The notes under the pieces: generated by a model
Database searches by the model: none
What the model was told of the DNA's origin: nothing
What the model saw: only the letters and a program-made list of their open reading frames with translations
Program-made: the position numbers and the translations under genes
Assembly (NCBI GenBank): GCA_003208835.1
Contig: QCVD01000005.1
Span: forward strand, 1-64,000
Source: Synechococcus sp. AG-683-C23
GTDB taxonomy: Bacteria; Cyanobacteriota; Cyanobacteriia; PCC-6307; Cyanobiaceae
Length of the DNA: 64,000 bases
Reading direction: 5' to 3'
Part shown: piece after piece, positions 1 to 27,774 of the stretch
Layout: each line of letters opens with the position of its first letter
Numbering within the stretch: position 1 is the stretch's first letter

Positions 1-639
1 GAAACACGCAAGGAAGACAAAGTTCCGGTGAAACCAGACCAGCTATTTGGGCTGATCGACAGCTTGTGCGACAAACCTGAACTACGTCTCGCCGTAACCC
101 TGGTCGGCCTATTTGGACTACGACCAGCAGAGCTAAAAGCGATGCGTGTGGTGGACGGAAAGCTGAAGGTTGGAAACGTCAAACGCAACCGCGCTACAGC
201 CAAAACACCGAAGCCAGACCGAATCGCCTACCCACTGGAGTTACCAGAACTGGCAGGTGCTGCAGGACAGGCACTTGCTCAGCTTGAAAGCGGTCTAGTG
301 AAGCTGCCCACTGGAATCGTTAATGCCCCTGACTTCAAAACTTGCGGCCACTCCTTCCGGCAATACCTTGATCGCCATTCGTACTGGGCAACCCTCGTGA
401 AAGCCAACCCGGGAATGTCTCCATACAGCCTGCGCCATGGCTACGCCTACCGAGGCGCTCTGGCCGGTATCCCTCTCAGGCAGCTCGCAGCCTCAATGGG
501 CCACGACGTGCGCACCCATATGAAGCACTACGGCCAATGGACTGATGAAGCCGGCCTTGATGCTGCCTTTGGTGCAGCTAATGCCAGGCTGACTGCATCA
601 CTGACCGAGCGTCAGCAGCAGATGCAGCAACAGCAATAG
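1..639 (+). CDS. Tyrosine recombinase/integrase, C-terminal part (frame open through window start)
   Basis: Frame reads ETRKEDKVPVKPDQLF from base 1; catalytic-domain motifs SLRHGYAYRG (HxxR-like) and MGHDVRTHMKHYGQW (active Tyr region). Confidence 0.85.
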   Translation, partial: ETRKEDKVPVKPDQLFGLIDSLCDKPELRLAVTLVGLFGLRPAELKAMRVVDGKLKVGNVKRNRATAKTPKPDRIAYPLELPELAGAAGQALAQLESGLVKLPTGIVNAPDFKTCGHSFRQYLDRHSYWATLVKANPGMSPYSLRHGYAYRGALAGIPLRQLAASMGHDVRTHMKHYGQWTDEAGLDAAFGAANARLTASLTERQQQMQQQQ

Positions 640-708
640 TCAGCGCACAGGCGGGGGGCAGCGTTTCCAGCCTGATCGGGTGTGAACTCAAGGTTGGCGC
701 AAAACTAT

Positions 709-1059
709 TTAAAAGCCGCCTGGCTCTTCAGGCATTTCACCGCTCGGATAGACGGTCAGTGCGTATTTGCCGTCAACTACAAAGCGGAAAAATTCCCCAA
801 AGTCCTGCTTTCTGTACGTCTTGCCCTGCTCGTCTAATGGAAAGTTGAAACTCCCTCGCGCGCTGTTGATGAAGGCGTTGCCCTGTTGATCGGCAAAGTC
901 GCAGGCAAAGTCCTCAGAGGGGGATGGCGGATCCAGGACCATCAGCTCGCACAGAGCACCCTTGACGGTATTGGCAGAAGCAAAAGGTGGATACATCGGC
1001 TCGCCTACGGCGATCAATGCTGCAACGGTGGCAACGGTGGTGAGTGAGATGCGGATCAT
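709..1059 (-). CDS. Hypothetical protein with possible signal peptide
   Basis: 116 aa ORF, hydrophobic N-terminus (MIRISLTTVATVAALIAVGEPMYPPFASA). Confidence 0.5.
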   Translation of the reverse strand: MIRISLTTVATVAALIAVGEPMYPPFASANTVKGALCELMVLDPPSPSEDFACDFADQQGNAFINSARGSFNFPLDEQGKTYRKQDFGEFFRFVVDGKYALTVYPSGEMPEEPGGF

Positions 1060-1091
1060 TGTTTTCTCTTGGCGCCTGCCTCTTAGTTAAA

Positions 1092-1394
1092 TCAATTCTG
1101 TGCCTTGTCGTTAGCTCTATCTGACGATGTACATAACTTGGTCAGCACTGACCCATCGCACGAGTCCTCAGTCAGCTCAATCACTTTGCGCCTTAGGAAC
1201 ACGCTGTCGATACGCCAATGACATAGTCCCTGCAGCTTTTCCTGCAACCCATTCACATCTATTAAACGCTGACCACTAGGCATATTGATATGCAAGTGGT
1301 CATCCAACCAACCATCATCAATCAACTTGTAGAGCTGTGATCGGCTCTTATATCCAAGATGTCTTGCAGCACCGCTAATGCTCATTAATTTCAT
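1092..1394 (-). CDS. Small helix-turn-helix (excisionase/MerR-like) DNA-binding protein
   Basis: N-terminus MKLMSISGAARHLGYKSRSQLYKLIDDGWL is typical of HTH_17/excisionase-like folds. Confidence 0.55.
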   Translation of the reverse strand: MKLMSISGAARHLGYKSRSQLYKLIDDGWLDDHLHINMPSGQRLIDVNGLQEKLQGLCHWRIDSVFLRRKVIELTEDSCDGSVLTKLCTSSDRANDKAQN

Positions 1395-1476
1395 TTGCGC
1401 GTCCCTTACTGTCTTCTATTTTAATTGCTCCACGCTAAACAAATAGCGAGCGTTTGAACGACCCACAGCGTTTACC

Positions 1477-2109
1477 TCAGGAGGGACCCTGAACAGATTC
1501 ACAGCCAGAATCAGCTTCGCTATTTTTTTTATTTTCTGCCTTCAGAAGCGGTGGATTGGCAGGGCTATTTTCATCCAATCTTCTTTCAACCTCTGACACA
1601 GATGCCTTGATTACATCGTCAGGAGGACGTCTATCCACTTGGTAGTTTTTAGGCGCAAATAAAAATATTGACTCCCCTATTCTCTCTTGGTGCCCTCCCA
1701 AGCTGTAGCAACCGCCAGCCACAAAGTCGACAGAGCGCTGAGCCAATTCAGGCTCCTGCATTGTCAAATTTAAATTAACAACATTCCCCTGCTTCATCGC
1801 ATCAATACAAATAGCCATTTCAGTAAACTTTGTAGGCTCAGCGATATAGATAAACGGCTTTTGATCTACAGCCAAATTCGACTCATCAGTCCTCAAAGAG
1901 GTCGCACCCCCAGCAACGGCAAGACCATTAACAGCTGCCTGTGTAAGAAGCGCGCGAAAAACACTTGCTCGATCGGTGCCTGAGCTAGCCACAAGAGTGT
2001 CTAATGCCTGCAGCTCTGCCGCATTCAGCGTCACCTTTACTTGATGGGTCCTTCTCCCCGGCTTTTCAGGAGGTGGAGTTGGGGCGTCCAAACCGTCAAG
2101 ATCATCCAT
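1477..2109 (-). CDS. Chimeric protein: ribbon-helix-helix-like segment + SepF-like cell division domain (start 2109 or 2139 uncertain; open frame reaches 2433)
   Basis: SepF signature KPFIYIAEPTKFTEMAICIDAMKQGNVVNLNLTMQEPELAQRSVDFVAGGCYSLGGHQERIGESIFLFAPKNYQV (about 1636-1860); upstream RRTHQVKVTLNAAELQALDTLVASSGTDRASVFRALL resembles RHH/CopG (about 1930-2046). The longer frame overlaps the divergent gene at 2318, so an internal start is likely. Confidence 0.8.
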   Translation of the reverse strand: MDDLDGLDAPTPPPEKPGRRTHQVKVTLNAAELQALDTLVASSGTDRASVFRALLTQAAVNGLAVAGGATSLRTDESNLAVDQKPFIYIAEPTKFTEMAICIDAMKQGNVVNLNLTMQEPELAQRSVDFVAGGCYSLGGHQERIGESIFLFAPKNYQVDRRPPDDVIKASVSEVERRLDENSPANPPLLKAENKKNSEADSGCESVQGPS

Positions 2110-2317
2110 AAGGACCAGGCAGGGACCAAGGTCCCTCATGTCTCCTAATAGTAAGTGATCGTCAAAAGCATTGCAAACACTATGGGATGAACCACGCGCG
2201 AAAAGCCCGCTCACTCTTTCGAGCGCGTCAGTCCTTATGAGTCCTTGACATCTAAGGGGCTGGGTCCCTATAAAAGGACCGTAGTCATTCAGCGGGCATC
2301 CGCCCTCTCCTCGATCG

Positions 2318-2563
2318 ATGATCAATCTCAAGTCAGCATTGGCCTTGAGCGCAGTAGTGCTCGGCATCTCCTCTGCATCCAGTGCAGCTATCGCACAAAC
2401 GTATGTGGGTGGATACCACCGCAGTAACGGCACATACGTAAGGCCCCATTACCGGTCCAGTGCAAATCACACCCAACGGGACAACTATTCGACGCGTGGC
2501 AACACCAACCCTTATACCGGCGCAAGAGGAACTAAATCTTGCGGTCTATGGGGATCTTGCTGA
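2318..2563 (+). CDS. Small secreted protein
   Basis: 81 aa with signal peptide (LSAVVLGISSASSAAIAQ) and YVGGYHRSNGTYVRPHYRSSANHTQRDNYSTRGNTNPYTGARGT motif seen in small exported proteins. Confidence 0.65.
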   Translation: MINLKSALALSAVVLGISSASSAAIAQTYVGGYHRSNGTYVRPHYRSSANHTQRDNYSTRGNTNPYTGARGTKSCGLWGSC

Positions 2564-2564
2564 C

Positions 2565-2596
2565 AAAAAGCCCGAGGGGGAATCAATCCCTCGGGC
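2565..2596 (-). terminator. Rho-independent terminator downstream of capsid gene
   Basis: Inverted repeat GCCCGAGGG (2570-2578) / CCCTCGGGC (2588-2596) with A-run 2565-2569 (U-tract on minus-strand transcript). Confidence 0.75.
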
Positions 2597-2626
2597 CATG
2601 CACTCACAAATCAGGACGTGTCGCGG

Positions 2627-4327
2627 TTATGCGATCGCGTCCTGCATCGCTGCAAATGATTCAGCGTGGCGGACTGCAATATCGATGCTCTGCAAGACCC
2701 GAACGCCTGTCGTGCCCTTAGCGAAGTCCGTGTAGGGGTCTACAAGTATTTCGAGCGTGCCAAAGAGCCCGATAAGCAGGTCGGAGAAATTTCCGTAGAT
2801 GACAGCGGACAGATCGGCCCCTGAACCCTTTGTGAGGTTTGAGGGGACATTGTTGCTGACCTCAAAACGCCGCCCTGCAATCTGGGAACGGCCAAGTTCA
2901 GCTCCATAAGGGCTGAGGAGGTACTGGCCTTGACTGTCCTTGAGCTTTCCAAGAACCGACTCGACTTTTGTGTTCGCAAGGAACCCGCAGGAGGCGACAT
3001 CAGCGTTATCAGCGGCGACCTCTTGTTTGAGATCCAACAGGTTGTCCAACGTTGGCGCGGCACCATTTGTTCCGCCGGCCACGCTCCCGATCCCTGACGT
3101 GTTCAGGATGCCGAGCGGTTGATTGCTTGATCCACTGCCGTTGATTGCAGCGGTATCGATTGCTTCAGCAATTAGGGCGACGAAGTCGGAGCGGATGAGC
3201 TGTTCGATGTCAGGCGTCGATTGCAGGCTCATCAGATGGGAGAACTTGCTCAGTGCACCAACCGTTTTGGGTGACATCGTCACGGTGCCGATGGTCCCAG
3301 TTGATTCAGTAACTGAGTCCGAGTTATCAGCACCAAACCAATACGCCGTGGCACTGCCGGTGCGCTTGGGGATGCTCACGTCACCGACCAAACCACTCAG
3401 AAATGTTGCGCCGAGTTCTGCAACGGCGAGGCGAGCGCGCAGTGCATCGATGAAGTTGTCAGCAAGGTGATCAGTGGCAATTAAGTTGCCGCCTGCAGTC
3501 GCTGTACCTGCGACATAAGCGCGTTTCTTCCAACCGTTATCTGGAACAAAAAAGCCCTGGGTACGGCGACCATTGCGGCGCTCAAGCTCTTGGTTGATTT
3601 CTGCTTCTCGGCCTCTGAGACCACGCCCGGAAGCGATGCCTTGGGCTGCAGCCACGATGGAGAACTGATCAATCTCGCGGCTGTATTCGTCTTCCGCCAC
3701 CCCATATGGAGCGATCGGTTCATAGGTGCTGGTCATTGTTTTGTGGGTCGTAGTTGGTTGTGAACGGTTCACGCCAATTGATGCGTCAGCAGGGATGCTC
3801 ACGACGCTGAGTTCGATGGGCTGCCATTTGCGGACAACCATCACCTCGCCCTCTTTCTCTGCATCGAGGACGGAATAGCCAACGCTGATGTTGGGCATCA
3901 CGCCCGCTTCCACGTCTTTACGGACCTGAATAGCGAGGTCATTGGTGGCCCATTGGATGCGGGCCATGCCTCGGCGTTTCTCATCGATCCATGCCCGCTC
4001 GACGATGCCGAGCACACGATCAGGGTCGTGATTCAGCAGCAGTGGAGCTGCGCCACCATTGAGCCTTGAGAGGTCAACGGCTTGGCGGTCATGGTCCAAA
4101 ACCTCATCACCGAAATATCGAGTGACAGGGGTTTCGCTGCTGAATGAAAACTCAAGCTGATCTGCATCAGCCTGTGGTTTATCGATGGTGAGATAACGCC
4201 GTTGGACTTCAACGGCTGTGGTTGTCATAGGAAGCCTTGCTTTCAATGAGGTCCCGTAAATAACGCCTTGACTGAGCAGAAGCCCGGTCATCTTCCCGAG
4301 GATCAGGTTGCCTTGGGGAGTCGTCAT
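2627..4327 (-). CDS. Fused HK97-type prohead protease + major capsid protein (start possibly 4228)
   Basis: N-terminal U35-like protease (LLLNHDPDRVLG His; PIELSVVSIPADASIGVN Ser motif), C-terminal HK97-like MCP (NLIATDHLADNFIDALRARLAVAELGATFLSGLVGDVSIPKRTG...NQPLGILNTSGIG...VLVDPYTDF-like). Confidence 0.85.
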   Translation of the reverse strand: MTTPQGNLILGKMTGLLLSQGVIYGTSLKARLPMTTTAVEVQRRYLTIDKPQADADQLEFSFSSETPVTRYFGDEVLDHDRQAVDLSRLNGGAAPLLLNHDPDRVLGIVERAWIDEKRRGMARIQWATNDLAIQVRKDVEAGVMPNISVGYSVLDAEKEGEVMVVRKWQPIELSVVSIPADASIGVNRSQPTTTHKTMTSTYEPIAPYGVAEDEYSREIDQFSIVAAAQGIASGRGLRGREAEINQELERRNGRRTQGFFVPDNGWKKRAYVAGTATAGGNLIATDHLADNFIDALRARLAVAELGATFLSGLVGDVSIPKRTGSATAYWFGADNSDSVTESTGTIGTVTMSPKTVGALSKFSHLMSLQSTPDIEQLIRSDFVALIAEAIDTAAINGSGSSNQPLGILNTSGIGSVAGGTNGAAPTLDNLLDLKQEVAADNADVASCGFLANTKVESVLGKLKDSQGQYLLSPYGAELGRSQIAGRRFEVSNNVPSNLTKGSGADLSAVIYGNFSDLLIGLFGTLEILVDPYTDFAKGTTGVRVLQSIDIAVRHAESFAAMQDAIA

Positions 4328-4632
4328 CTACAGGTGTTCTGATCACTGATTGACCGATAATTGGTGTCATGTGAATGCCTTTAATCTAGACAACTATATG
4401 CATTAATTATAGCTAATTTCTTATATTCGTTTAATTGACCTTATTGAATAGAGGTCACGCCTTGTTCGCTACCTAGTTCAGACTATTCAAGCTTAATTGC
4501 CCTTAATCGTCGCTAGTAGATATGCTATTAAGCCCCCTTTAACCTGGCGCTAGCGCGGCAATGGGGTCCGAATCAACCCATACACGCACTGACAGCCAGG
4601 ACCCTGAGTTGCACAGATATTAGAAGTCATGG

Positions 4633-5700
4633 TCATTGAGGGGGTGTGTTGGAGATGTAGGAAAAGTCCAGATCCGCATAGACATACATAGGTCGACCTC
4701 CTGAGTGAGGGAGTTTCTCCCTCTTCAATTCGCCTTGTGTGAAAAGCTTTTGCAGCACTCTTCTTGCATGTTCTGGGTTGCAGCTGATTTCCCTTGAAAT
4801 CTCATTTGTTGTCCATCGCTTTTCGCTGCCACGAATTAGATCGCAGACCTGGTTTGCAATCTCTAAACGCCTCATCGGCAGGACATCGTTTTGGTCGGCA
4901 ACGCTATGCAATCTATGGGAGTAATCCTCTTTGCATCCGTCAATATTCCAGGTAGTACCTTCTTCGCAAAATCTAGGTTTTAAGCAGCGCAACATGAGAT
5001 GTGTATCCAGCTCTTTATCTGGTTTATCAGCTCTCCAAATTCCCCAAACATCGCTTGCCGCCCAGCCTTGACTACCAGCACCATATAAATCAGCAATCTT
5101 GACTTTATTGGTCGTTGTCTCTCTCCCCTGTTTGCGTAGGTGACATGTCATCCCAATTAAGACACCTTCATCTGATGCCCAGTCATTTAGGGCATACAAA
5201 GGAAATCCAAATTCAGCGTCATTCATCCTTGGACCATCAGAGTTTCTACCAAAAAGAGTTGTGATGGAGTCAAGAAGGATGGCGTCATAACTCTCTTGCT
5301 CCTGCAAGGCATTGAGACGCTGCATGTCAAACGTCTTCATATCGGTGATGAAATCAAAAGCTGGGTCCATACCCATTACCTGAAGCTTGCGCTGTGCATT
5401 GCGCTCGCTTTCATCGGCCTGAATCACCAACACCTTGCTTTTCTGAGTGGTTAGTTGACCCATAAAGGGTTCCCCAACACTCATGGCTTGAGCCATTCCA
5501 TAGAGAAATGTGGTTTTGCTGGAGCCTGTATCCCCGGCAATTACAAGCAACGAACCACGACAGGCCAATTCAGTAATCAACCATTCCTCTTTTTGCTTGC
5601 TCGCGAGTAGTTCTCGGGCTGTAGGGACTTTTCCTACATCCCCAACACTGGGGTCAACCCATTCATGTCGAGCTGCAATTTCGTGAAGTTCAGAAGTCAT
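4633..5700 (-). CDS. RepA-like AAA ATPase/helicase
   Basis: Walker A AGDTGSSKTTFL, Walker B YDAILLDSITTLFG, RepA/AAA_25-like order; ATG at 5700 overlaps the primase stop. Confidence 0.8.
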   Translation of the reverse strand: MTSELHEIAARHEWVDPSVGDVGKVPTARELLASKQKEEWLITELACRGSLLVIAGDTGSSKTTFLYGMAQAMSVGEPFMGQLTTQKSKVLVIQADESERNAQRKLQVMGMDPAFDFITDMKTFDMQRLNALQEQESYDAILLDSITTLFGRNSDGPRMNDAEFGFPLYALNDWASDEGVLIGMTCHLRKQGRETTTNKVKIADLYGAGSQGWAASDVWGIWRADKPDKELDTHLMLRCLKPRFCEEGTTWNIDGCKEDYSHRLHSVADQNDVLPMRRLEIANQVCDLIRGSEKRWTTNEISREISCNPEHARRVLQKLFTQGELKREKLPHSGGRPMYVYADLDFSYISNTPPQ

Positions 5701-6685
5701 GTGAATGCGGCCTCCAGCCGTGATGTTTTGCCCAAAACCAGAACGAACCTGCAGAGACTTGCTCTCCACCACTGCGACACACCTGCCTGACATCCCACCC
5801 CGAACTGTTTGAGGGGCTATGTGCCTCCATCAGTTCAATGGCGACCTCCTCTGGAAATCCGCGGTCCTTACAGGCAGCACTCAGTCCCCAAAGGATCGAT
5901 CTGTATTTCGAATAGGTGTTGCTTCCTGGCACACGCCTAGGGATGCAATGAAGTCCGTCAGCTATGTCAACAAGGGGACGAGGCTGATGCTTGTTCGTGA
6001 CTTTGCGTGGAATGTGCCTGTGCTCTTGAGGAGCAGGCAGACACCGCTCGAATTGATCAAGCGTGTATTTGATGTCGCTGCTGCTGACAATCTCCACACG
6101 GCCTTTTGGCTTGCCATCAGGACCTATGTAGAGACTCCCTGGCAGCCGCATCACACGGCTTAGGTCCTTGCAAGAAGGATCACTACCGCAATGCTTGATC
6201 AATTGACATTGCACCTTCTTCCAACGCTCAAGGTCACTGCAATCGCCCAGCACCCAATAGGTGTGGATGGACTTACCGCTGGTTGAAACCTGTATCGAAG
6301 GTTCAGGCAGGTTGAGGTCTTGCCAGGCATTGAGTTGCCATTCGACAGGCTGGTCATCCCACTCAACGAAAAGAGCGCAGCAGTGAGTGATCTCAGCTGC
6401 CTTGTCTCCTCCTTCATTGATAACTAGATAGAGACCTCTACCTCCGTCCTGCCATTGCTGAGCTGCAAAGAGGTCAAACGATCCAGAACGAGAACCAAGG
6501 TTCTTCAGCTGAGTAGGAGGGAAAGAACGAATACGAGCAGTTAGCTCTGATTTGCCAAGCAGATCAAGGAAATAAAGCGCCGTAGCAGCGCAAATCTCAT
6601 TCGATCCAACACCAGGGATTCCCGGTAAGTTTTCAGTAGGTTTTGAAATCTCACCGGCCCCTGTTTCCGCAGGGGCTTTTTTCAT
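5690..6685 (-). CDS. RepB-like primase/polymerase domain protein
   Basis: FVEWDDQP, STSGKSIHTYWVL and DLSRVMRLPGSLY motifs of plasmid/satellite primases. Confidence 0.75.
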   Translation of the reverse strand: MKKAPAETGAGEISKPTENLPGIPGVGSNEICAATALYFLDLLGKSELTARIRSFPPTQLKNLGSRSGSFDLFAAQQWQDGGRGLYLVINEGGDKAAEITHCCALFVEWDDQPVEWQLNAWQDLNLPEPSIQVSTSGKSIHTYWVLGDCSDLERWKKVQCQLIKHCGSDPSCKDLSRVMRLPGSLYIGPDGKPKGRVEIVSSSDIKYTLDQFERCLPAPQEHRHIPRKVTNKHQPRPLVDIADGLHCIPRRVPGSNTYSKYRSILWGLSAACKDRGFPEEVAIELMEAHSPSNSSGWDVRQVCRSGGEQVSAGSFWFWAKHHGWRPHSHDF

Positions 6686-6963
6686 CCCTTTTGCTCCAAC
6701 TCTTCGAGTCGTTGCGTCATTGCAGTGACTGCAGTTTTGAAGTGTGCACTGACCTCTTGAGCGAGGTCTGCAGCATTAGCAGCCGCTGCACGATTCACCC
6801 CCATGCCTTCTTGCAGCTGACCAAGGCAAGCCATCAAAACGGTGACACTGCTGATGAGGCGCTGATCAAGCTCAGTGCTTGCCAATGGCATCAGTTCATC
6901 GCGCCAAGCATCGCTTTGCTCTTTGACCTTTTCAGTCGTCCAAAAGATGTCGAGGTTCGTCAC
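6682..6963 (-). CDS. Hypothetical protein (GTG start overlapping upstream stop)
   Basis: In-frame GTG at 6963 overlaps the TGA of the 6960-7184 ORF; coupled cassette. Confidence 0.6.
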   Translation of the reverse strand: MTNLDIFWTTEKVKEQSDAWRDELMPLASTELDQRLISSVTVLMACLGQLQEGMGVNRAAAANAADLAQEVSAHFKTAVTAMTQRLEELEQKG

Positions 6964-7184
6964 TTCAACACCCCCTTCCGAGCACACATTCCGCGGTAGT
7001 TGAAAGCCTCTCGGCAACGTTCAATGCACCAAATAATTGGGCTATTTGCAGTTGCACCTAGGAAGTAGTCCTTCCCGTTTTCAAGAAAGCCGCCGCATGT
7101 CTCACGCTTTCGCTTAAGCGTGTCCGTAGAGATGCCAAGAGCATCCGCCGCTGCCTTGGTCGGCAGGAAAAGTTGAGTTTTCAC
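6960..7184 (-). CDS. Excisionase-like small HTH protein
   Basis: LFLPTKAAADALGISTDTLKRKRETCGGF HTH-like N-terminus; first gene of the replication cassette. Confidence 0.6.
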   Translation of the reverse strand: MKTQLFLPTKAAADALGISTDTLKRKRETCGGFLENGKDYFLGATANSPIIWCIERCREAFNYRGMCARKGVLK

Positions 7185-7192
7185 TATCCGCC

Positions 7193-7567
7193 TCAGTTCT
7201 TGAACGAGACGATGAGCTGCTCCTTATTTGGAGACTCAATCCAATAGGACCCATACACCTTGCTGCTGTACGGATCCTCACCAGCCTCTAAGAGAGCAAC
7301 GTATTCATCGCGCTTGGCCCAAAGCTGATCGCGGGTCAGACCAGCTAATTCACGTTTGCGGAGAGCATCGCGAAGCTCTGGCTGACCATCAGAGATGCGA
7401 TCGAGATGGTTTGGCGCATAGGGATCGTTGACCAGCTGCTCAAGCAGCCGATGGAATTGCCATCGGCAATGCCAAGTGAACTCATCAACTCCACCAAGGT
7501 CAACACGAACTCCGTTGTCCTTAATTTGCCGAGGCTTGTCTTTGAACTTGTTCCGAGAAGTAGGCAT
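7193..7567 (-). CDS. Hypothetical element protein
   Basis: ORF MPTSRNKFKDKPRQIKDNGVRVDLGGVDEFTWHCRWQFHRLLEQ..., colinear with the element operon. Confidence 0.55.
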   Translation of the reverse strand: MPTSRNKFKDKPRQIKDNGVRVDLGGVDEFTWHCRWQFHRLLEQLVNDPYAPNHLDRISDGQPELRDALRKRELAGLTRDQLWAKRDEYVALLEAGEDPYSSKVYGSYWIESPNKEQLIVSFKN

Positions 7568-7792
7568 AACAGTTCCTTGCTGTCTTAGGAACCGTTCTCC
7601 CAATCACCAGCCAGTCCCGAAAGCCGAGACCTACTTCCGTATTGAACAGCTATTGCAACACCATATATGCTGCTGTAATCCCTAGCAAGTCAGCTACACC
7701 ACAGGTAGCGGCAGAGGCGCAAAAGATCACACCACGAATCACACCAACGACGACGATTCAGCGCAAAATAAAAACAGCCAAAAACTAGAAAA

Positions 7793-7811
7793 CCCTTCCA
7801 GCGGAAGGGAT
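7793..7811 (-). terminator. Hairpin downstream of tRNA-Ala
   Basis: CCCTTCC-AGC-GGAAGGG with A-rich flank on the left (U-rich on minus-strand transcript). Coordinates approximate. Confidence 0.5.
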
Positions 7812-7819
7812 TCAATCAA

Positions 7820-7892
7820 TGGAGCCAAGCGGATTCGAACCGCTGACCCCCTGCATGCCATGCAGGTGCTCTACCAGCTGAGCTATGGCCCC
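7820..7892 (-). tRNA. tRNA-Ala(GGC)
   Basis: Reverse complement GGGGCCATAGCTCAGCTGGTAGAGCACCTGCATGGCATGCAGGGGGTCAGCGGTTCGAATCCGCTTGGCTCCA folds as a cloverleaf; anticodon GGC. Confidence 0.95.
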
Positions 7893-7953
7893 AAAAACGA
7901 TGGACTTGCCCTCGAGCAAATCAGCGTCGTTGGAACTTTACACCGCGAAGTTC

Positions 7954-8654: not shown

Positions 8655-9611
8655 TCACAAGCCACCCATGAGTGCCGCTAGCAGCGCTTGCTGGGCATGA
8701 AGTCGGTTTTCGGCTTGATCAAAAATCCGACTGGAAGCACCCTCCAGCACCTCCGCTGTGATCTCTTCACCGCGGTGTGCGGGTAAGCAATGCAGAGCAA
8801 TTGCATCCTTTGCGGCGTGATTCATTAAGGCCTGATCCACACAGAACGAGGTAAAGGCAGCTTCCCGTTCAGCTTGCTCATCTTCCTGTCCCATCGACGC
8901 CCAAACATCGGTGTACACCGCTTGTGCACCAGCCACTGCTTTGACGGGATCTGTGCAAATGTCGATCGAAGCTCCATGTTGTGCCAGCGATCTGGCCTGA
9001 TCCAGCACCCCAGACAACGGCTCAAATCCTTCCGGACAACCAATCCGAACGTTCACCCCGAGCAAGGCTCCACAGAGCATGAGGGAGTGAGCAACATTGT
9101 TGCCGTCCCCGATATAAGCCAACGTTTGTCCGGGAAGATCACCATGAACTTCCAACATCGTGAGGAAGTCAGCTAAGGCTTGGCAGGGATGTTCAAGGTC
9201 GGTAAGAGCATTGATCACTGGGATGGATGACCAGTGGGCATAGTCGACGAGTTCCTGCTGAGCAAAGGTGCGGATCGCCAATGCATCGCAATAGCGACTC
9301 AACACGCGTGCTGTGTCTTGCAACGGTTCGCCGCGGCCCAGCTGCGTCACGGTTGGGTTCAGATCCACCGTTTGACCACCGAGCCGGGCCATCGCAACTT
9401 GGAAACTGACCCGCGTCCGAGTGGACGCCTTGGTGAAGATCAACCCAAGAACGCGATTGCCGAGATCGATGCGTCGATCTCCAGATTTCAGCTGTGCCGC
9501 CAGCGTGAGAAGCGCTGTCGTTTCAGCGGCGGAACCATCTGCAGATGAAAGGTAATCGTGACCCTGCAGCCTCACAAGAGAAGGTGCAACCCCTTCAGCA
9601 GCGAAAGCCAT
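8655..9611 (-). CDS. argF: Ornithine carbamoyltransferase
   Basis: STRTRVSFQVAMARLGG, HPCQALADFLT and HCLPAHRGEEI motifs. Confidence 0.95.
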   Translation of the reverse strand: MAFAAEGVAPSLVRLQGHDYLSSADGSAAETTALLTLAAQLKSGDRRIDLGNRVLGLIFTKASTRTRVSFQVAMARLGGQTVDLNPTVTQLGRGEPLQDTARVLSRYCDALAIRTFAQQELVDYAHWSSIPVINALTDLEHPCQALADFLTMLEVHGDLPGQTLAYIGDGNNVAHSLMLCGALLGVNVRIGCPEGFEPLSGVLDQARSLAQHGASIDICTDPVKAVAGAQAVYTDVWASMGQEDEQAEREAAFTSFCVDQALMNHAAKDAIALHCLPAHRGEEITAEVLEGASSRIFDQAENRLHAQQALLAALMGGL

Positions 9612-26697: not shown

Positions 26698-27774
26698 TTG
26701 TGCCCACAGCGTGCCATGAAACCGATGGATGAGGGGCCATCGGTCGATCGGAGAATTGCACGACTGATCGATGCCAATCTCGATCGAGCCAGGGAAGGCC
26801 TGCGCGTCGTGGAGGACTGGTGCCGGTTTGGCCTTGAGCGCGACGATCTTGTTTTACGACTCAAAGATTGGCGGCAACGCCTGGGGCGACTCCACCGAAG
26901 CATCTACAAGCAGGCGCGATCTACGGCCACAGACCCTGGGGTTGGTCTCAGCCATCCAGCCCAAATGGAACGCCACAACCCCCAAGCAGTAGTGGCGGCT
27001 AATTGCGGCCGCGTGCAAGAAGCTCTTCGCGTTTTGGAGGAATACAGCCGCAGCGTTGATCCATCCCTGGCATCCGAATCAGCCGCGATCCGTTACGGGC
27101 TGTACGACCTGGAAGTCACCTGTCTCAACGCCAGTGAGGGCAACGAGCGTCGCCGAACACTGAACAACTGCCAGCTGTGCCTCATCACCACCCCATGCCC
27201 AGATCTCATCGAGCGGGTGAAACAGTCCCTGGCGGCTGGGATAACCATGGTGCAGTACCGCTGCAAAAGCGGTAACGACAGAGAGCGACTGGAGGAAGCC
27301 AAAGCATTGCGAATACTGTGCCGGAAGCACGGAGCGCTTTTTGTGATCAATGACCGCATCGATCTGGCCCTCGCGGTCGATGCGGATGGCGTGCACCTTG
27401 GTCAAGACGATCTACCCACCGATGTCGCCCGGGGATTGATCGGTGAGGCACGTCTGCTGGGTCGCAGCACCAACACCCTGGACGACGTGCGTCGTGCCGA
27501 TGCCGAAGCCTGCGATTACTTGGGCCTCGGACCGGTTCACACCACCGTCGTCAAACCAGACAAACCCGCCGTTGGCCCATTGCGTTTGCAAGAGGCCCAG
27601 GCAATCACGCGTCTGCCGGTGTTCGCCATTGGAGGTATTGATCTCGACAACATTGCGGCACTCCTCGATGTGGGCTGCAGGCGCATCGCTGTGATCGGCG
27701 CAATCATGGCTGCGGAGAACCCTGAGCGCGCTAGTCAACAGTTGCTTCAGTCCTTGTTGCCCCCCGTCGATTGA
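26698..27774 (+). CDS. thiE: Thiamine phosphate synthase with N-terminal extension
   Basis: VQYRCKSGNDRERLEEAK, FVINDRIDLALAVDADGVHLGQDD, YLGLGPVHTTVVKPDKPAVG. Confidence 0.92.
   Translation: MCPQRAMKPMDEGPSVDRRIARLIDANLDRAREGLRVVEDWCRFGLERDDLVLRLKDWRQRLGRLHRSIYKQARSTATDPGVGLSHPAQMERHNPQAVVAANCGRVQEALRVLEEYSRSVDPSLASESAAIRYGLYDLEVTCLNASEGNERRRTLNNCQLCLITTPCPDLIERVKQSLAAGITMVQYRCKSGNDRERLEEAKALRILCRKHGALFVINDRIDLALAVDADGVHLGQDDLPTDVARGLIGEARLLGRSTNTLDDVRRADAEACDYLGLGPVHTTVVKPDKPAVGPLRLQEAQAITRLPVFAIGGIDLDNIAALLDVGCRRIAVIGAIMAAENPERASQQLLQSLLPPVD

Follow-up and report, generated by a model that had tools for sequence, protein, structure and literature searches.

The Staphylococcus aureus pathogenicity island (SaPI) SaPIbov5 encodes Ccm, a homologue of the helper phage's capsid protein; the delta domain comprises 87 residues in Ccm and 128 in the helper (PMC8569155). 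No satellite protein other than Ccm is needed to turn the prolate shells of the helper into small T=4 shells, in which Ccm occupies the pentamers (PMC8569155), and it has been suggested that the length of the delta domain correlates with capsid size (PMC5052747). Capsid-forming phage-inducible chromosomal islands (cf-PICIs) also encode a portal, connectors, both terminase subunits and an HNH protein (PMC10690885). Tycheposons have been cited among the marine islands that might be satellites (PMC10803314). The use of phages by picocyanobacterial satellites is a largely untested field.

Here, we describe an element with one capsid gene at the start of contig QCVD01000005.1 (C5) of Synechococcus sp. 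AG-683-C23, whose draft genome comprises 1.91 Mb in 81 contigs and is 77% complete. The window is the stretch of 64,000 nucleotides that starts at base 1 of this contig, and the element occupies its first ∼7.8 kb, up to a tRNA-Ala(GGC) gene. Taken as one joint reading, the window probably holds the right end of a capsid-remodelling phage satellite that resides in tRNA-Ala(GGC) and depends on a helper siphophage. What this analysis adds is a scaffold deletion common to the satellite capsids, their grouping as one clade and the connection with Ccm. The clean common deletion makes a concrete prediction, that of small shells, out of what was a vague finding of an island with a capsid gene. We know of no earlier report of such a deletion.

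The protease-capsid protein and its shortened scaffold segment

The protease-capsid gene (2627–4327, minus strand; PF04586, 7e-7; PF05065, 6e-48 over 1–279/280; phrog_617, 8e-112) likely has its real start near 4225, where the homologues begin. The protein is composed of an S78 prohead-protease domain with conserved H100, S148 and E172 (3770–4159, minus; Pfam and alignment), a delta or scaffold segment (3524–3763, minus; alignment and motif-distance check) and a full-length shell core of the HK97 fold (2630–3523, minus; Pfam, alignment and Foldseek). The three protease residues are kept in 14/14 satellite capsids, and the satellite shell core is of full length (286 versus 280 residues). The scaffold segment has 90 residues in the window protein and 89–98 in all 14 satellite capsids, whereas it ranges from 155 to 223 in 79 phage homologues, with no overlap. 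About 75 scaffold residues are lost in every satellite capsid, while the protease and the shell core are retained, and the alignment shows that the lost block is present in every phage protein displayed. An alignment-free distance between motifs across the scaffold gave 68–94 for satellites and 153–219 for phages, the motifs being missed in 36 of the 101 sequences.

In a phylogenetic tree, all 14 satellite capsids fall into one clade on a long stem (support 100/100), apart from the 46 phage capsids. The pairwise ratio of nonsynonymous to synonymous substitution rates (dN/dS) among the satellite capsids is 0.09–0.15, which indicates strong purifying selection; the more distant pairs approach saturation at synonymous sites, and recent pairs still give 0.09. 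An AlphaFold model of the capsid, with a moderate predicted local distance difference test (pLDDT) score of 67.7 and used for the fold only, has the HK97 fold, and its best match in Foldseek is the capsid of the marine siphophage R4C.

The same capsid family is found in phages. The lambda-type portal PF05136 is present in 18 of the 21 phage-like contigs that carry it; of the remaining three, one has PF04860 and two have the capsid gene at the contig start. PF04860 is thus the wrong portal family for most of the phage contigs and PF05136 the right one. None of nine satellite host genomes has PF05136, nor do the viral contig L006 and the capsid-bearing element L113, both described below. In the cyanosiphophages S-LBS1, S-CBS1 and S-CBS3, the gene order is terminase, an unnamed gene, portal and capsid. 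The capsids of S-CBS1, S-CBS3 and S-LBS1 are of the same protease-capsid family and 33.8%, 36.3% and 31.7% identical, respectively, to that of the related element L059 over 89%–97% of the L059 capsid, but these are full phages, with the capsid gene after those for terminase and portal and with a scaffold segment of 173–187 residues. In a viral contig of 9.7 kb (L114, 247–6701), which may be another satellite type, an integrase and an AAA ATPase accompany a capsid that has a long scaffold and belongs to the phage clade.

Insertion at tRNA-Ala(GGC), gene content and complete relatives

The tRNA-Ala(GGC) gene (7819–7893, minus; ARAGORN) is the integration target, and its 3′ half (7819–7865, minus) is the deduced attachment (att) core. 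A genome of the same genus (G206) is 96% identical across the tRNA-lexA-argF flank, and the similarity is lost exactly at the 3′ end of the tRNA (window 7820, L228 611). By this comparison of sequences, the element is an insertion at tRNA-Ala(GGC). Copies of the 3′ half of 47–54 nt lie a few kilobases apart in other same-genus genomes (∼9.0 kb between copies in G188, ∼4.7 kb in G187, and also in G131), and the integrases beside them are 42%–51% identical to the window integrase. Such copies flank the related elements L226 12115–16877 (4.7 kb) and L233 865–10025 (9.0 kb), which are capsid-free, use the same tRNA-Ala and have integrases of the same clade; by eye, their contents include a methyltransferase-like or VapE-like open reading frame (ORF). 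Because the same-genus elements at this tRNA carry different cargo, with no match to the capsid, the tRNA-Ala locus is a hot spot with exchangeable contents.

Base 1 of the window is the assembly end of contig C5 and no biological boundary, which is why this copy has neither the left att site nor the N-terminal half of the integrase. Judging from the relative L233, about 0.85 kb would be missing and the full element would measure ∼8.7 kb. A search of the rest of the assembly did not recover the left end; it turned up nothing but a separate tRNA-Ala remnant within contig C12. This contig of the same genome (G000) carries the 3′-half remnant at 9406–9466 and a capsid-gene fragment at 27358–27639, traces of earlier satellites. 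A first-pass annotation of the window, made from the letters and an ORF list, had called the element intact. It is indeed compact and not decayed, but its left edge is the contig end. The annotation had also reasoned that packaging genes upstream of base 1 would mean a prophage; this does not apply at a contig end, and on that side the complete relatives have the integrase and att site alone, with no packaging genes.

From the left, the gene order is the integrase on the plus strand and, on the minus strand, a small secreted-looking ORF, a helix-turn-helix (HTH) gene, a SepF-domain gene, the protease-capsid gene, an AAA_25 ATPase gene, a primase-like gene and three small genes, including one for an AlpA-like HTH protein. 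Genes were called from the ORF list and by Pfam and PHROGs profile searches of ten window proteins, none of which matched a terminase, portal or tail family. Together with ARAGORN, the searches bear out the earlier list of an integrase, HTH regulators, a primase, a RepA-like ATPase and one protease-capsid protein in ∼7.8 kb beside tRNA-Ala, without terminase, portal or tail genes; that list was correct as given but had overlooked the SepF-domain gene. The tyrosine integrase (1–639, plus; PF00589, 5e-5; phrog_1, 3e-11) is represented by its C-terminal 212 residues, the 5′ part being cut by the contig end. The candidate replication genes encode a RepA-like AAA_25 ATPase/helicase (4633–5793, minus; PF13481, 2e-18; 38% identical to its L059 counterpart) and a primase-like protein (5690–6685, minus; phrog_36873, 2e-26; weak RepB_primase match, 0.0095). 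The AlpA/excisionase-type HTH protein (6960–7184, minus) belongs to a family found across the elements, and its L006 homologue matches HTH_17 and the excisionase phrog_2907.

Among 151 genomes of the family, full-length relatives of the capsid are found in just three others (83%, 67% and 59% identical), with fragments in more, so the presence of the element is sporadic. Complete relatives in Prochlorococcus and Synechococcus measure 6.8–9.4 kb, are bounded by 45–63 bp repeats of tRNA-Pro and follow the same plan, with the recurring order AlpA-like HTH, small genes, Rep ATPase/helicase, capsid-protease, winged HTH and integrase. The element of G130 (9.4 kb) lies between 51 bp tRNA-Pro repeats, and that of G092 measures 9.3 kb. 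The hosts in the genome scan include Synechococcus and the Prochlorococcus single cells AG-355-O17, AG-388-A01, AG-388-F11, AG-402-N10 and AG-424-E20, among others. Exact repeats of 45–63 bp bound the elements of AG-355-O17 (7.3 kb) and AG-388-F11 (8.3 kb), and likewise each of two capsid-bearing elements of 6.8–6.9 kb that stand in tandem in AG-388-A01. These tandem satellites (L099, 6634–20431) each have their own integrase and lie among three exact repeats of the tRNA-Pro 3′ half. The gene set of the window is not a chance assembly, as other genomes have these genes in this order, framed by exact tRNA repeats. The att repeats of the relatives and the sporadic presence also uphold the mobility that had been proposed for the element.

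The IMG/VR contig L006 (8,725 bp) has identical ends of 99 bp, which make it a circle of 8,626 bp, and contains a single 45-nt copy of the tRNA-Pro att site directly before the integrase, as would be expected of the excised form. In protein scans of L006 and of the satellite locus L099a, the capsid was the sole structural gene found. L113, a capsid-bearing element with a tRNA-Arg at the contig end, has the deepest-branching capsid of the satellite clade and encodes a terminase small subunit (3372–3935, minus; phrog_57, 8e-27), which supports a packaging role for the satellite lineage.

The SepF-domain gene (1477–2139, minus; 220 residues from the likely ATG) matches PF04472 at residues 97–168 (5e-21), and its product matches solved SepF structures at 3.5e-9; a weak ribbon-helix-helix match (RHH_1, 0.057, residues 34–68) lies N-terminal to the domain. 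The host's own SepF gene is on contig C15, and the other SepF matches listed among the 151 family genomes consist of the SepF domain alone. Scans of viral contigs for relatives of the gene found none. One may speculate that the protein affects host division or the positioning of the element. In similar positions, relatives carry an outer-membrane-barrel-like protein (L057), an RTX/cadherin-like protein and a DNA-ligase adenylation domain (L058) or a ligase domain (L100). A lone NAD-dependent DNA-ligase adenylation domain adjoins the integrase at L058 5963–6727, L100 7338–8093 and L101 12385–13140, called by a Pfam match in L058 and L100 and by similarity in L101. The cargo slot of the window also holds a small putative secreted protein of 81 residues (2318–2563, plus; ORF).

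The remaining genes are small. A protein with an apparent signal peptide (709–1059, minus; ORF) has a weak relative on contig C12 (L192, 33%). The winged-HTH protein (1092–1394, minus) is a candidate regulator or excisionase; its gene lies 3′ of the capsid gene in most relatives, and iterated searches with hidden Markov models (HMMs) found the family in 14 other loci. Its AlphaFold model has a pLDDT of ∼88 over residues 1–50 and is MerR-like in Foldseek, with a probability of 0.92 but an E value of 0.43. Given these weak statistics and no terminase match in PHROGs, its assignment as a small terminase is unsupported. Toward the tRNA are a small protein that appears helical and is conserved in several relatives (6682–7017, minus; iterated HMM and alignment) and, at the tRNA-proximal end, a conserved small protein (7193–7603, minus) with iterated-HMM relatives in L095, L096, L106, L057 and L232.

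Proposed helper dependence and alternative readings

From these features we infer how the element may replicate, form a small shell and be packaged by a helper. The ∼8.7 kb satellite, integrated at tRNA-Ala(GGC) of a marine Synechococcus-type genome, would excise as a circle by means of its own integrase and the AlpA-like factor and would copy its DNA with the primase and the RepA-like ATPase. Its lone structural gene would provide a phage-derived protease-capsid protein with a delta segment cut by ∼75 residues, and this protein would either build small shells or force the helper protein into them, the shells fitting the satellite genome. Portal, terminase and tail would come from a helper, a siphophage resembling S-CBS1 and S-CBS3 and sharing this capsid family. 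Redirection of capsid size with these helper parts is favored because the marine satellites show the short-delta signature of Ccm in an unrelated setting.

Several points weigh against this. The left end of the window copy is missing, the helper is presumptive, and the closest capsids of isolated cyanophages are just 32%–39% identical. Unlike Ccm, the satellite capsids keep the fused protease and may therefore build complete shells alone. Conversely, the delta domain of HK97 is reported as essential for assembly in the title of a reference in PMC5052747, and for this reason the cut protein might not assemble unaided. The shell may be mixed with helper protein or, as the kept protease leaves room for, be satellite-only. 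A complete satellite-only shell, with the helper's part limited to portal, terminase and tail and with a small T number set by the short scaffold alone, follows the logic of cf-PICIs; the shell core is full, the protease motifs are intact and selection is purifying, all of which fit it, as does the presence of both the structural relative RcGTA (the Rhodobacter capsulatus gene transfer agent) and a cf-PICI capsid in the Foldseek list. However, neither portal nor connectors are encoded, and Ccm, the closest mechanistic precedent, is incapable of forming shells alone (PMC8569155). We regard this alternative as rather unlikely, though less so than the others.

It is improbable that the capsid serves mainly as a weapon, one that would protect the host by poisoning the assembly of helper capsids while doing little for packaging of the element itself. 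A shortened homologue could be dominant negative, and Ccm also blocks helper growth (PMC5052747), but the element has genes for its own integration and replication, a circular form is known and several tRNA sites are occupied, all of which point to transfer, with interference perhaps a side effect. Still less is to be said for a general island shuttle moved by phages or vesicles, with the capsid as domesticated cargo such as an encapsulin-like compartment. Elements with other cargo and no capsid, with an integrase of the same clade at the same tRNA-Ala, would suit such a shuttle, yet the prohead protease and its motifs, needless for an encapsulin, are kept, and one relative has the terminase small subunit. 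Least credible is a decayed prophage that retains integrase, replication genes and capsid, which the first-pass annotation had already doubted. Capsid fragments are common in the family; decay would nest the capsids among those of phages under relaxed constraint, whereas the 14 form one clade outside the 46 phage capsids, share one scaffold shortening, evolve with dN/dS near 0.1 and lie in the same compact order between exact repeats, with one circular form at hand. We therefore reject it.

Comparison with described satellites

With its integrase, insertion at a tRNA edge, att repeats in complete relatives and lack of a full virion gene set, the element conforms to a phage satellite in the broad sense. 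The earlier suggestion of a mobile, satellite-like element therefore stands, but not its likeness to capsid-encoding PICIs in the strict sense. The element shares with cf-PICIs an own major capsid protein and head protease and, putatively, a tail from the helper; it differs in that portal, connectors and the small and large terminase subunits (TerS and TerL) were found neither among the ten window proteins nor in L006 or L099a, and no HNH protein was found here either. A strict cf-PICI is thus rejected.

The element is probably a satellite-type tycheposon. In common with tycheposons, described from Prochlorococcus, are a tyrosine recombinase, picocyanobacterial hosts that include Prochlorococcus single cells and insertion at tRNA sites (tRNA-Ala here, tRNA-Pro in relatives); the recombinase of tycheposons is a deep-branching one. 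The 2023 paper in Cell reportedly describes capsid genes in the satellite subset of tycheposons. Phage-inducible chromosomal minimalist islands (PICMIs) and virion-encapsidated integrative mobile elements (VEIMEs) are likewise small marine integrated elements moved by phages, but PICMIs have no capsid or capsid-remodelling gene (PMC10803314).

More tentatively, and with somewhat less than even confidence, we propose a picocyanobacterial satellite lineage that hijacks its helper by means of a single self-cleaving capsid protein and nothing else, the scaffold helices of this protein having been deleted in an ancestor. This would be an independent invention of the Ccm trick, combined with free swapping of cargo; the cargo added here would be the SepF-domain protein, which is possibly DNA-binding and could act on host division. 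If this is true, hijacking by a capsid homologue arose more than once, capsid size is tied to delta length in natural variants and the trick was invented independently in the ocean's most abundant phototrophs.

The cos SaPIs of the SaPIbov5 type come closest, as small integrated elements with a single capsid homologue whose delta segment is far shorter than that of the helper, which is needed for the rest (PMC8569155, PMC5052747). The marine elements belong to another phylum and another capsid family, have a fused protease and show a larger cut, ∼75 residues versus 41–44 in the Ccm type. Their capsids resemble Ccm in having a delta segment shorter than that of phage homologues, and this cut scaffold is more indicative of size redirection in the manner of SaPIbov5 Ccm than of an element fully autonomous in its capsid.

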